DNA from: Bacillus sp. (in: firmicutes)
GTDB lineage: Bacteria > Bacillota > Clostridia > Lachnospirales > Lachnospiraceae
NCBI GenBank assembly: GCA_023666125.1
Contig: JAMPCN010000016.1
Coordinates: 1-39,912, forward strand
DNA: 39,912 bases
Direction of reading: 5' to 3'
The first letter of the stretch is position 1. Every line of letters starts with the position of its first letter. The position numbers were made by a program, and so were the translations under genes. The notes under the pieces were generated by a model. That model saw only the letters and a list, made by a program, of their open reading frames with translations, had not been told where the DNA came from and did not search any database. Shown here piece by piece: positions 22,373-25,522 of this stretch.

Positions 22373-22405
22373 AGTTTATAAAGAATCATGTTGAGGAGGC
22401 AAATG

Positions 22406-23011
22406 ATGATATACGGATATGCAAGAGTTAGTACAAAAGAGCAGAATGAAGATAGGCAGGTCATGGCATTTTTGAAAGCAGGTATACCGATAGACCATAT
22501 ATTGATTGATAAGCAGTCGGGCAAGGATTTTGACCGTCCGGTATATCGTGGATTGGTTCGGAAACTTGAAAAAGACGATTTGCTTTATATTAAGAGCATT
22601 GACCGTATGGGAAGAAATTATGAGGAAATTATAGAACAATGGAGAATGCTGACCAGAGAAAAAGAGGTTGATATTGTTGTATTGGATATGCCGCTTTTAG
22701 ATACCAGACGCGGAAAAGATTTGATGGGGACATTTTTAAGTGATATCGTTTTACAGGTATTGTCATTTGTGGCGGAAAATGAACGCAAGAATATCCGGCA
22801 GAGACAGAGAGAGGGGATTGAAGCTGCCAAGCGGCGTGGAGTACGGTTTGGCAGACCAATGAAGCCTTTGCCGGAGAATTTTCCAAAAGTATACGGAATG
22901 TGGACGGCTAAAGAAATTACAGGAACAGAAGCGGCGAAACAATGTGGTATGCCATGCACAACATTTTACAGAAAAGCGCGGAAGTTACAGGGAATGGAAA
23001 GCGGACAGTGA
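22406..23011 (+). CDS. Small serine recombinase (resolvase/invertase family)
   Basis: A 201-residue serine site-specific recombinase. The N-terminal catalytic domain opens IYGYARVSTKEQNEDRQ with the nucleophile Ser in ARVS, then RPVYRGLVRKL and the conserved SIDRMGRNYEEI. The long E helix has ENERKNIRQRQREGIEAAKRRG, and a C-terminal helix-turn-helix covers EITGTEAAKQCGMPCTTFYRKA. Size and order match resolvases and invertases, not large integrases. AGGAGG at 22394-22399 favours the ATG at 22406 over 22403 or 22388. No transposase accompanies it. Two inverted copies of an 18-bp sequence begin 14 bases after its stop and could be its sites. Confidence 0.92.
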   Translation: MIYGYARVSTKEQNEDRQVMAFLKAGIPIDHILIDKQSGKDFDRPVYRGLVRKLEKDDLLYIKSIDRMGRNYEEIIEQWRMLTREKEVDIVVLDMPLLDTRRGKDLMGTFLSDIVLQVLSFVAENERKNIRQRQREGIEAAKRRGVRFGRPMKPLPENFPKVYGMWTAKEITGTEAAKQCGMPCTTFYRKARKLQGMESGQ

Positions 23012-23025
23012 AACAAAAAATAGAG

Positions 23026-23049
23026 TTTCAAAAAGTGTACTTTTTGAAA
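23026..23049. repeat. Palindromic candidate recombination site 1
   Basis: TTTCAAAAAGT and ACTTTTTGAAA are perfect 11-base inverted arms around a central GT. This is the size and geometry of a serine-recombinase crossover site. A hairpin with loop TGTA (weak terminator of the recombinase gene) is an alternative reading. Confidence 0.55.
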
Positions 23050-23186
23050 AATACAATATACATTTTTAATTCTACTACTAATTCATTTATAAAACAAGAA
23101 ATTATTTGCTTTTTCTGCAATTATCCCATTTTTTTACTTTTTTTCATTTTTTAATATTTATTTTAATCAGTTGATGTTTTTTCCAT

Positions 23187-23204
23187 AAAGTACACTTTTT
23201 GAAA
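23187..23204. repeat. Inverted copy of site 1, candidate recombination site 2
   Basis: The reverse complement matches 23026-23043 exactly over 18 bases (TTTCAAAAAGTGTACTTT). The full right arm ACTTTTTGAAA is kept, while the left arm is degenerate. Between the two copies are about 143 bases of very AT-rich DNA without a gene; on the minus strand it holds TTGTTT-17-TAGAAT (23069-23097), a possible promoter. Confidence 0.6.
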
Positions 23205-23265
23205 AAAGAAGATTGTACGGATTTGAAATATGAAAAACATAAGCAAATAGCAGGAGGATGTCAAA

Positions 23266-23700
23266 ATGAAGTGGAAACCGGAGAAAGAACCGACAGAAAT
23301 GGAACGAATACAGGAAAACATTGCGCAGGCGGAGATGGAAATACAGCAGCGCATTTTCCAGTTGGGGCAGATGTATTACGAAGATAATAAGGAGAAAGAG
23401 AGCGGTAGCATAGAGGAAAAATATTATACAATCATAGATTTGATTCAGAAGCTTGATTTAAACAGAATGGGGTTTTATAAAAACAAACTGCGTCTGGAAG
23501 GACAGATGATTTGTGAAAACTGCGGCTCCGTCATTTCATATGGCAGCGTGTATTGCAATATCTGCGGTAAAAAAGCGGATGAGAAGCAGGAAGGAGAACC
23601 CGCTAAAATGACTGCAGCCATGAGAAAATGTGCGGCGTGCGGCGCCGAATTGGATGATAACAGTATATTTTGTGAAGCCTGTGGTACAAAGGTAGAGTAG
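23266..23700 (+). CDS. Double zinc-ribbon protein with N-terminal coiled coil
   Basis: A 144-residue soluble protein. Residues about 10-45 form a helix rich in Glu and Gln (MERIQENIAQAEMEIQQRIF), likely a coiled coil. Two CxxC...CxxC zinc ribbons follow: ICENCGSVISYGSVYCNICG and KCAACGAELDDNSIFCEACG. No enzyme motif. AGGAGG eight bases upstream supports the start. It is first of four linked genes whose products combine zinc ribbons and membrane segments. The region ahead of it holds the inverted repeats, so its expression could depend on their orientation; this is inference. Confidence 0.85.
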   Translation: MKWKPEKEPTEMERIQENIAQAEMEIQQRIFQLGQMYYEDNKEKESGSIEEKYYTIIDLIQKLDLNRMGFYKNKLRLEGQMICENCGSVISYGSVYCNICGKKADEKQEGEPAKMTAAMRKCAACGAELDDNSIFCEACGTKVE

Positions 23701-23750
23701 CAGCTTTTCAGGCGTTAAATTTGTTAAAAAATATTTTGGAGGATAACATT

Positions 23751-24152
23751 ATGAAATGTTTTAAATGCGGAGCAGAAATACCGGCAGGTAAAATGGCATG
23801 TGAGAAATGCGGTGCGATTGCTTTTGCCGGAAGTAATAATATTGTTGGCAATATGCAGGAAAACTATAAAAATACGCAGAAAAGCGGCGTAAATATGTCT
23901 AACTCGAACAGGGAACCCATAGGCTCCGGATATTCCGTTGCATCAATGGTACTTGGAATTATTGGTCTGGTTCTTTTCTGGACGTTCATCATTGGCATTC
24001 CTGCAGGAATCTTAGCAACGGCATTGGGAGGATACGCCCTTTATCGAGGAGCTTCCGGGAAAGGTATGGCGATAGCGGGGCTTTCCTGCGGTATCATAAC
24101 GCTTTTTCTGTGCATTTTTATAATTTGTGTTGTGGGAGTGAACAATTTATAG
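23751..24152 (+). CDS. Zinc ribbon + DUF4190 membrane protein
   Basis: A 133-residue protein with an N-terminal zinc ribbon (CFKCGAEIPAGKMACEKCG), a polar linker, and a DUF4190 domain from about residue 58: SVASMVLGIIGLVLFWTFII and a second hydrophobic segment around 105-130 (two membrane helices with the usual AIAGLSCGIITLFL). GGAGG seven bases upstream supports the ATG at 23751; an in-frame start at 23721 lacks one. Such proteins are membrane-bound with the ribbon in the cytoplasm; no function is known. It lies 50 bases after the first ribbon gene. Confidence 0.87.
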   Translation: MKCFKCGAEIPAGKMACEKCGAIAFAGSNNIVGNMQENYKNTQKSGVNMSNSNREPIGSGYSVASMVLGIIGLVLFWTFIIGIPAGILATALGGYALYRGASGKGMAIAGLSCGIITLFLCIFIICVVGVNNL

Positions 24153-24185
24153 TTTATCTTGAAAGATATCAGAGGGAGAGAATAA

Positions 24186-24872
24186 ATGTTTTGTAAAAAA
24201 TGTGGTCAGAAGATTAAGGATGGTGTAAAGTACTGCCCGAAATGCGGTAATGAAACGGGAAGCGTTTTGCCTCAGATGCAGGCAGGCGGTCAGCCGCTTT
24301 CCTTTCAGCAGTCCGTTTCATTCCGACAAAGCAGTCCGGTGCAGCAGGAAAAACGAACGGATAAAGGCAAAGCCATCGACAGGCGTATCTTGTTTGTAGG
24401 AATCGGAATAGCGGTTATCGTATTGGCGGCAGTCATAATCGGGCTAATCATGAAAGCAGGACAGGAAGATTCGGAAGAAGATGCCACTATTATCGGCGAA
24501 TGGATAAGCGACGATTTCGTTAATATGGGAACTTACATGGAAGATGTCTTTGAAGAAGTCGGGGTTCCTGATTGGGCAATCGATTTTGTCATGGAGCAGA
24601 CGGGATTGAATACGATGGGAACACTGACGCTGACATTTACGGGCAGCGGTAAAATCCTGCTTGGGGTGGATGGCGTATCAATGAGTTTTGGTTCGATGAC
24701 CTATGAAGAATTGCGCGAGGGACGTATTGTGTTGAAATATGATGTAAATGCGACCGTGTTGGGCTTCGGCGTTCCTGTTTCCGTTGCATATACTTCAGAT
24801 TATACGATTGATAAGGATAGCATGGAAATGGATTTCTTCGGATGCAAAATTAAATTTTCACGGGTGGATTAG
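24186..24872 (+). CDS. Zinc-ribbon, single-pass protein with lipocalin-like outer domain
   Basis: A 228-residue protein: zinc ribbon MFCKKCGQKIKDGVKYCPKCG at residues 1-21, Gln/Ser-rich linker, one membrane helix at about 61-85 (ILFVGIGIAVIVLAAVIIGL), then an extracytoplasmic domain. That domain begins GEWISDDF and has alternating strands such as LTLTFTGSGKILLGVDG and ends MEMDFFGCKIKFSR, the layout of small lipocalin-like proteins of Clostridia. The ribbon would face the cytoplasm. Third gene of the ribbon cluster, with AGAGGGAGAG upstream. Confidence 0.85.
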   Translation: MFCKKCGQKIKDGVKYCPKCGNETGSVLPQMQAGGQPLSFQQSVSFRQSSPVQQEKRTDKGKAIDRRILFVGIGIAVIVLAAVIIGLIMKAGQEDSEEDATIIGEWISDDFVNMGTYMEDVFEEVGVPDWAIDFVMEQTGLNTMGTLTLTFTGSGKILLGVDGVSMSFGSMTYEELREGRIVLKYDVNATVLGFGVPVSVAYTSDYTIDKDSMEMDFFGCKIKFSRVD

Positions 24873-24886
24873 AATGGAGGATTATT

Positions 24887-25522
24887 ATGAGTAATAACGG
24901 ATTACAGGATATAGGTTCTATGCAGATGGGGACATTGTCCACAACAACATCATCAAACAGCGGCGGGAAGAAACCGCAGAAGAATGGCAGACAGATACCG
25001 TTTAAGATAATCATACCGGCAGCAGCGGTTATATGCGTGATACTATTGCTGGTTATCATACTGCCGACGCCGCTTGGCAAAAGTAAAGCGAAAAAAGCCT
25101 GTAAAGAGGTTGTAGAAAATATGTTTACAGGTGATGAAGAATTTTTTGAAAAATATTATCCCGAGGAATTTGCGGAGGTATTGTACGAATATTATAGTAT
25201 AAATTCTGAAACCAACAAAGGCGCTATAAACGAAGATGATATAAAAGTAGATGCTGAAGTTAAATCGGTAACGCCTATAAACGTAAAGAAAAATAAAACG
25301 ACGCTGCGAAAAAGAGTAAAAGAATATTTTGAAGAGGTATTAGAAGAAGTGGATGTTTCCGATATGAAGATATCGAAAGCATATTTAGTAAAAGTCAAAA
25401 TGGATATAAATTATAGCGACGAATCAGAAAAAGACACTGTATCAGCGTTAGTGCTGAAAATAGATGGAAAATATGGCGTGTATTTTTTTTGTGAAGATTT
25501 TGACAAAGAGCTTGATTTCTAA
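24887..25522 (+). CDS. Single-pass membrane protein with NTF2-like outer domain
   Basis: A 211-residue protein without a zinc ribbon. The N-terminal 38 residues are Ser/Thr/Lys-rich and probably cytoplasmic, one membrane helix spans about 39-61 (IIIPAAAVICVILLLVIILP), and the outer domain starts SKAKKACKEVVENMFTGDEEFF. The helix-strand order of the outer domain resembles DUF4878/NTF2-like folds; this is a weak assignment. It starts 14 bases after the previous gene and completes the four-gene cluster. Confidence 0.8.
   Translation: MSNNGLQDIGSMQMGTLSTTTSSNSGGKKPQKNGRQIPFKIIIPAAAVICVILLLVIILPTPLGKSKAKKACKEVVENMFTGDEEFFEKYYPEEFAEVLYEYYSINSETNKGAINEDDIKVDAEVKSVTPINVKKNKTTLRKRVKEYFEEVLEEVDVSDMKISKAYLVKVKMDINYSDESEKDTVSALVLKIDGKYGVYFFCEDFDKELDF

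Follow-up and report, generated by a model that had tools for sequence, protein, structure and literature searches.

A recombinase gene, two opposed sites and a zinc-ribbon operon

The window (the whole 39.9-kb stretch of DNA analyzed here) carries a gene for a small serine recombinase and, behind it, two opposed 24-bp sites flanking a short A/T-rich segment, followed by an operon that encodes zinc-ribbon proteins (Table 1). The recombinase stop codon ends at 23011, and 14 bases separate it from the first palindrome. The architecture described in a reading made from the sequence alone (the sequence-only reading) was confirmed. The palindrome has 11-base arms around a central GT, an exact 18-base inverted copy lies downstream with its center opposed, and the "about 143 bases" of gene-free, AT-rich DNA proved to be 143 on counting, with no recognizable gene and 17% G+C between the cores. 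The site centers are 155 bp apart and opposite in orientation. Pfam likewise bears out the start of the zinc-ribbon cluster at 23266.

Table 1. Features of the recombinase locus, by position in the window
Feature	Position	Strand	Basis
Small serine recombinase, 202 aa, presumed invertase	22403..23011	+	Pfam Resolvase PF00239, 2.3e-27
Recombinase-proximal crossover site, TTTCAAAAAGT-GT-ACTTTTTGAAA, perfect 11-bp arms	23026..23049	.	Sequence and site matrix
Putative invertible segment separating the 24-bp sites, no gene recognized	23050..23180	.	
Candidate promoter TTGTTT-17-TAGAAT, weak, aimed at the recombinase (operon OFF)	23069..23097	-	
Distal crossover site, 24 bp, inverted; exact 18 bp at 23187-23204	23181..23204	.	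Sequence
AGGAGG, ribosome-binding-like, ahead of the first operon gene	23252..23257	+	Sequence
Zinc-ribbon protein, first gene that a flipped promoter would face	23266..23700	+	Pfam Zn_Ribbon_1 and DZR above cut-off
Zinc-ribbon-like protein	23751..24152	+	Zn_Ribbon_1 24.1/25 bits and DUF4190 26.9/35, both below cut-off
Zinc-ribbon protein, hydrophobic stretch (by eye)	24186..24872	+	Zn_Ribbon_1 above cut-off
Probable last operon gene, hydrophobic stretch (by eye)	24887..25522	+	No Pfam or NCBIfam match

The repeats are not due to chance. Theirs is the only exact inverted 18-mer pair within 300 nt in the whole window, and no such pair arose in 20 Markov-resampled windows or in 2,000 resampled local stretches; here, as for the site pairs and promoters below, the nulls are first-order Markov resamplings rather than strict shuffles. 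A search of the whole assembly placed the 18-mer, without mismatch, at these two positions only. Opposed repeats around a short segment are the arrangement of an inverton.

The recombinase matches the Pfam Resolvase domain alone. Read from the sequence and aligned to Sin, it has R8, S10, D67, R68, and R71, which we take to be the catalytic residues, and it thereby has both the catalytic domain PF00239 and the serine/arginine pattern expected of small serine recombinases. Its best matches among solved structures by sequence were Sin/Tn552 Bin3 (up to 103.5 bits), followed by the Tn3 and gamma-delta resolvases (up to 77 bits), while two structures named as DNA-invertases (4m6f and 3uj3) reached about 59 bits and the NCBIfam Mpi model (PRK13413), which has a cut-off of 272 bits, gave 45.8. 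Because of these scores, the protein is, by sequence comparison, a small serine recombinase closer to resolvases than to Hin-type invertases.

The operon (23266-25522) comprises genes for two clear zinc-ribbon proteins, one protein just below threshold, and one without a family match. Homologues of the first gene occur at 55 to 62% identity in eight genomes of the genus, and in those eight no recombinase match was found within about 1.5 kb of them. The operon can therefore exist without the switch, and the switch was either gained in this lineage or lost in others. The window genome holds a second cassette on a separate contig (G000:C69, locus L149), with a complete site pair ahead of a hexapeptide-transferase gene and a recombinase gene broken off at the contig end. 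This cassette is nearly identical to one in genome G036 (locus L100; 244 identities, 7 mismatches, 2 gaps) and has the same orientation. A further recombinase fragment lies at the end of contig G000:C102 (L150).

Paired sites and downstream genes among related recombinases

Recombinases with an inverted 24-bp site pair behind the stop codon form a large set, mostly clostridial by record names. We sampled 80 relatives from one-per-species genomes, at 66 to 77% identity to the window recombinase, and a site matrix found an inverted pair 3' of the stop in 47 of them; the matrix was built from 34 pairs, which it later scored as well. Nearest to a held-out set are 19 family loci; the matrix found a pair in 12, and repeats of earlier loci are among them (for example, L173 of L099 and L156 of L044). 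Among the 47 relatives plus the window, 35 of 48 pairs had exactly GTGTAC as the proximal and GTACAC as the distal core, and the rest varied. By the matrix or by a second criterion (any GTNNAC center with at least 16 of 24 positions matching), and with loci from the genus, family, and order added, a pair was found at 93 of 151 recombinase loci. Since some loci recur across the collections (L099 and L173, for example, are one stretch of genome G004), counts below use the 72 distinct segments that these represent. Eight of the loci in which the GTNNAC test found no pair had less than 300 nt of sequence after the stop. Exact paired sites turned up in 4 genomes when 392 from the order were searched.

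The same GTNNAC criterion found no pair in 1,510 resampled regions, and relatives on viral contigs with sufficient sequence had one in 3 of 71 cases (0 of 7 at 65 to 80% identity). The site pair is therefore no artifact of loose matching, and some relatives are without it. In a recombinase tree, built without those pairless loci that had less than 300 nt behind the stop codon, pair-bearers were clustered (35 changes, versus 69 on average when labels were shuffled) and did not form a single clade. The window's own clade is mixed: 9 of its 26 members, the window included, have a pair, and in 17 none was detected.

Several loci depart from this layout. Three of those with exact paired sites in the order (L151, L152, and L154) were excluded from the counts since the fetched stretch contained no recombinase match. 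Two of these, L151 (G319:C7:14479-14604) and L152 (G374:C204:1073-1198), have exact GTGTAC/GTACAC pairs; their segments resemble each other and lie on opposite strands of the contigs, and both are possibly switches served from elsewhere. In L137, L138, L146, L147, L092, L095, L183, L188, and L190, the sites have the self-complementary center AT (GTATAC), and there the central dinucleotide by itself cannot set the direction of recombination. At L139, a related recombinase stands directly ahead of what looks by eye like a flagellin-like reading frame, and no pair was detected there; at L136 two related recombinase genes stand in tandem with what seems, by eye, to be a single site behind each.

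A first open reading frame could be chosen mechanically behind the cassette in 67 of 71 paired relatives. Near-repeats and a few doubtful picks were left out, and the remaining 51 were scanned together with the window's own. Among these 52 first genes, family-2 glycosyltransferases and Zn_Ribbon_1 proteins (window included) were each found four times, S-layer homology and BspA-type repeats three times each, C5 DNA methylases, Eco57I-type methylases, and the Cas12f1-like TNB domain twice each, and many other families once or twice. A C5 DNA methylase gene (L031:6866-7975, plus strand) lies behind a cassette known both ways round (L164 versus L031, L036, and L166), which makes it a candidate for a phase-variable methylome. 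TnpB/Cas12f-like proteins adjoin such recombinases at L020:6807-8201 (+), L076:6823-8178 (+), and L095:2-1303 (-). The latter two are 51 to 54% identical to the first, the Pfam TNB domain is found in L020 and L076 and not in the incomplete L095, and a site pair was detected ahead of the gene at L020 and L095. Because the position that we take to be the first RuvC aspartate appears to be S or A in these proteins, they may have lost nuclease activity and be TldR-like, with an invertible promoter controlling them.

Promoter direction, segment orientation and site spacing

Promoters were scored with a sigma-A hexamer matrix and spacer penalties of our own. A first count with free offset in 48 segments gave 34 promoters pointing toward the recombinase (OFF), 10 pointing away (ON), and 4 undecided. 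With the end of the -10 box required to lie 34 to 38 bp from a site core, a promoter was present in 45 of 57 distinct segments (37 toward the recombinase, 8 away, none both), compared with a resampled mean of about 1.9 and 2.0 in the two directions and at most 10 in total. In the full set, 55 of 72 distinct segments have this standard promoter, of which 45 face the recombinase, 10 face the downstream gene, and none face both. Column profiles of the segments made without a promoter model had no column above the information cut-off; the evidence for the promoters is therefore the matrix test.

A standard promoter is missing from 17 of the 72 distinct segments, the window's among them. The minus-strand TTGTTT-17-TAGAAT of the sequence-only reading is present, at an offset of 28 that falls within a smaller peak at 25 to 29, but it is a weak match: a promoter scoring as well at any position arose in 90 of 300 resampled segments, and one as good at the offsets known from relatives arose in 31 of 1,000.

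The sequence-only reading had also proposed that the segment inverts and suggested a search of other genomes for it in either orientation. Among relatives of the same build, cassettes were found both ways round. L164 (from the one-contig genome G774) and L166 (from G746) are identical at 540 of 540 positions once the segment of one is turned in silico between the site centers; unturned, they give 486 identities, 42 mismatches, and 24 gaps. Two further genomes, D16-50 (L031) and IMSAGC_012 (L036), share the L166 orientation; in these bases L036 matches L166 throughout, and L031 departs from it at a single base. Within the window's genus, the segments of L098 and L107 match only if one of them is reversed (score per base, 0.96), with identities rising from 194 to 267 over 303 and 302 bases. 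For L022 and L045 the rise is from 195 to 229 of 252, without gaps, and a more distant fourth case, L092 and L095, gives 182 identities and 63 mismatches when turned. Other close pairs, including L100/L149, L105/L106, and L052/L063, have the same orientation.

The boundaries of the turned stretches fall inside the site cores, so the inner half-sites swap partners; this is what strand exchange at the central dinucleotide requires. Across the whole set, swapped inner half-sites showed a mild trend (7/12 versus 4/12 for ON and 26/47 versus 15/47 for OFF) and, being only mild, it was not counted as proof.

No second orientation of the window's own segment was found in a protein search of 77 genus genomes, its own included, where the best recombinase match besides the window itself had 74% identity. 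Nor was there a counterpart among the matches listed from a DNA search of 397 family genomes, where the matches listed over the segment were short A/T-rich pieces only (for example, one at 76% in G708 over query 743-818, and others 25 to 62 bases long around query 732-793 in a few genomes). The proposal of an invertible promoter switch thus stands for the kind of cassette, through relatives that occur turned either way and carry a one-strand promoter, and for the window itself it would follow from membership in that kind, given the lack of a counterpart segment, the weak promoter at another offset, and a spacing out of phase.

Spacing in the set is periodic. Measured from center to center, the 72 distinct segments have spacings of 113-118, 125-129, 134-139, 147, 166-167, and 176-177 bp, plus five other values (106, 155, 160, 211, and 229 bp). 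For a period of 10.5 bp the Rayleigh R is 0.685, the best period being 10.3 bp, and none of 10,000 jittered sets and none of 10,000 random sets of distinct lengths were equally periodic, a null in which kinship is handled only through the removal of similar segments. We infer that both sites need to lie on the same face of a short loop, and such phasing is suggestive of inversion through a small loop. The window, at 155 bp, lies 2.8 bp from the mean phase.

Interpretation of the window cassette and its place among known systems

The window segment is very probably an on/off switch ahead of the zinc-ribbon operon, because relatives of the same build occur in both orientations with the promoter turning along. 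At a probability of about 0.8, we read the cassette as a self-contained phase-variation system in which a promoter flip switches the operon, assembled here in the OFF state. The recombinase (22403-23011) would bind both opposed 24-bp sites, pair them across a short, helically phased loop, cut at the central GT/AC, and rejoin the ends after inversion of the 155-bp (center-to-center) segment. A promoter near one end of the segment, directed outward, would in the assembled state aim into the recombinase gene and, once inverted, face the operon (ON). Inversion in the window, the role of TTGTTT-17-TAGAAT as promoter, synapsis that depends on phase, and dependence of the operon on this promoter are all parts that we infer.

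Three other explanations were weighed against this reading. The one with the most in its favor, to which we give a minor share of the probability, is that the sites are real but the window cassette is dead or locked, with no inversion or no working promoter and with the operon transcribed by other means. The weak promoter, the spacing 2.8 bp off phase, the lack of a detected pair in 17 of the 26 members of the clade, and the zinc-ribbon homologues that stand without a nearby recombinase in eight genus genomes would all fit such a locus; an intact recombinase frame with the catalytic pattern and a proximal site that is still a perfect palindrome argue for a working one. It is far less probable that the palindromes are terminators or RNA hairpins at the 3' end of the recombinase gene rather than crossover sites. 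As RNA, the proximal site forms a 10-bp stem whichever strand is taken (-7.8 kcal/mol with z -2.5, and -7.7 kcal/mol with z -3.4), followed on the minus strand by a T run, and the minus strand of the distal site gives a fold slightly more stable than those of shuffled sequences (-6.5, z -2.1), but the stems are A/T-rich, the distal plus-strand fold is no better than shuffles (z -0.35), and a terminator scan calls none at either site. The scan and the RNA folding led us to reject this as the main reading; for the kind of cassette, the crossover-like swapping of inner half-sites on turning, as in L164 and L166, also speaks against it.

Slightly less probable again is a resolvase of a mobile element, with the repeats as binding sites for resolution or for regulation of its own gene. 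The closest solved structures are indeed resolvases (Sin/Tn552 Bin3, Tn3, and gamma-delta), plasmids carry relatives (397 records at E of 1e-40 or lower, all below 60% identity), and the relatives on viral contigs are mostly without a site pair. The directly repeated sites of resolvase systems such as Sin and Tn3 are, however, not what the window has: its sites are opposed, so recombination between them inverts the segment, and relatives of the same layout occur both ways round. On these two grounds the resolvase reading was rejected.

Returning to the promoter flip, a broader account may be offered tentatively, as one that we think rather less likely to hold than to fail: the window would be one copy of a widespread, portable clostridial cassette with a phase-dependent loop, perhaps free of an enhancer, in which antisense RNA stabilizes the OFF state. 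Such a cassette would consist of a segment of mostly 11 to 17 helical turns, two simple sites, and a resolvase-type recombinase, and its targets would include methyltransferases, glycosyltransferases, S-layer proteins, zinc-ribbon proteins, and TnpB-like proteins. The promoter pointing back would yield RNA antisense to the recombinase gene, and this stabilization would explain why 45 of 55 standard-promoter segments were assembled OFF. The OFF bias in relatives could reflect either selection or such antisense transcription. The cassette lets phase-variable operons of many uncultured Clostridia be predicted from sequence alone. Surface glycosylation is among the predicted targets, as are DNA methyltransferases, through which a whole methylome would switch, and the zinc-ribbon operon of the window. 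The set could yield compact one-enzyme DNA switches.

The res sites used by resolvases are complex and directly repeated. Sin/Tn552 Bin3 and gamma-delta are the nearest solved relatives of the window protein by sequence, whereas its own sites are two, simple and opposed. In Hin/Gin-type systems, such as the Salmonella flagellar phase switch, inversion turns a promoter, and the likeness extends to a small serine recombinase and opposed sites. To our knowledge, Clostridia have no Fis. Hin is regulated by a remote Fis-bound enhancer (PMC3798978), and its gene is located inside its invertible segment (PMC5903667). Here, in contrast, the gene lies beside the segment, site centers are 106 to 229 bp apart, and the protein scores higher against Sin than against the DNA-invertase entries (103.5 versus about 59 bits). 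Mpi of Bacteroides fragilis is a serine master invertase acting on at least 13 scattered small regions (PMC5903667). It resembles the present system as a serine recombinase inverting small DNA regions; the recombinase here, however, adjoins its own site pair, and the Mpi model gave 45.8 of the 272 bits required.

A genome-wide search for invertons was reportedly introduced by Jiang et al. in 2019. Short invertible segments in Clostridia have been linked to tyrosine-type recombinases in two cases, the RecV switches of C. difficile (PMC5903667) and inverton group 139 of the hCom2 community, where the strongest clostridial link was to a recombinase of that type (PMC11892184); this set differs from both in having a serine recombinase. 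The latter source gives a median of 3 invertons per genome for Clostridia-like members versus 8.5 for Bacteroidota and reports other Firmicutes_A groups, for example 125 (PMC11892184). Members of the present set may be among those groups, whose motifs are in its supplement. In the literature searched, we found no description of this set, and some members may already be listed. Serine invertases as such were known, Hin and Mpi being described in earlier work (PMC11868660, PMC5903667, and PMC3798978), and invertible promoters of gut bacteria are well known. The window cassette would be a variant within the known kind of serine-recombinase phase-variation invertons.
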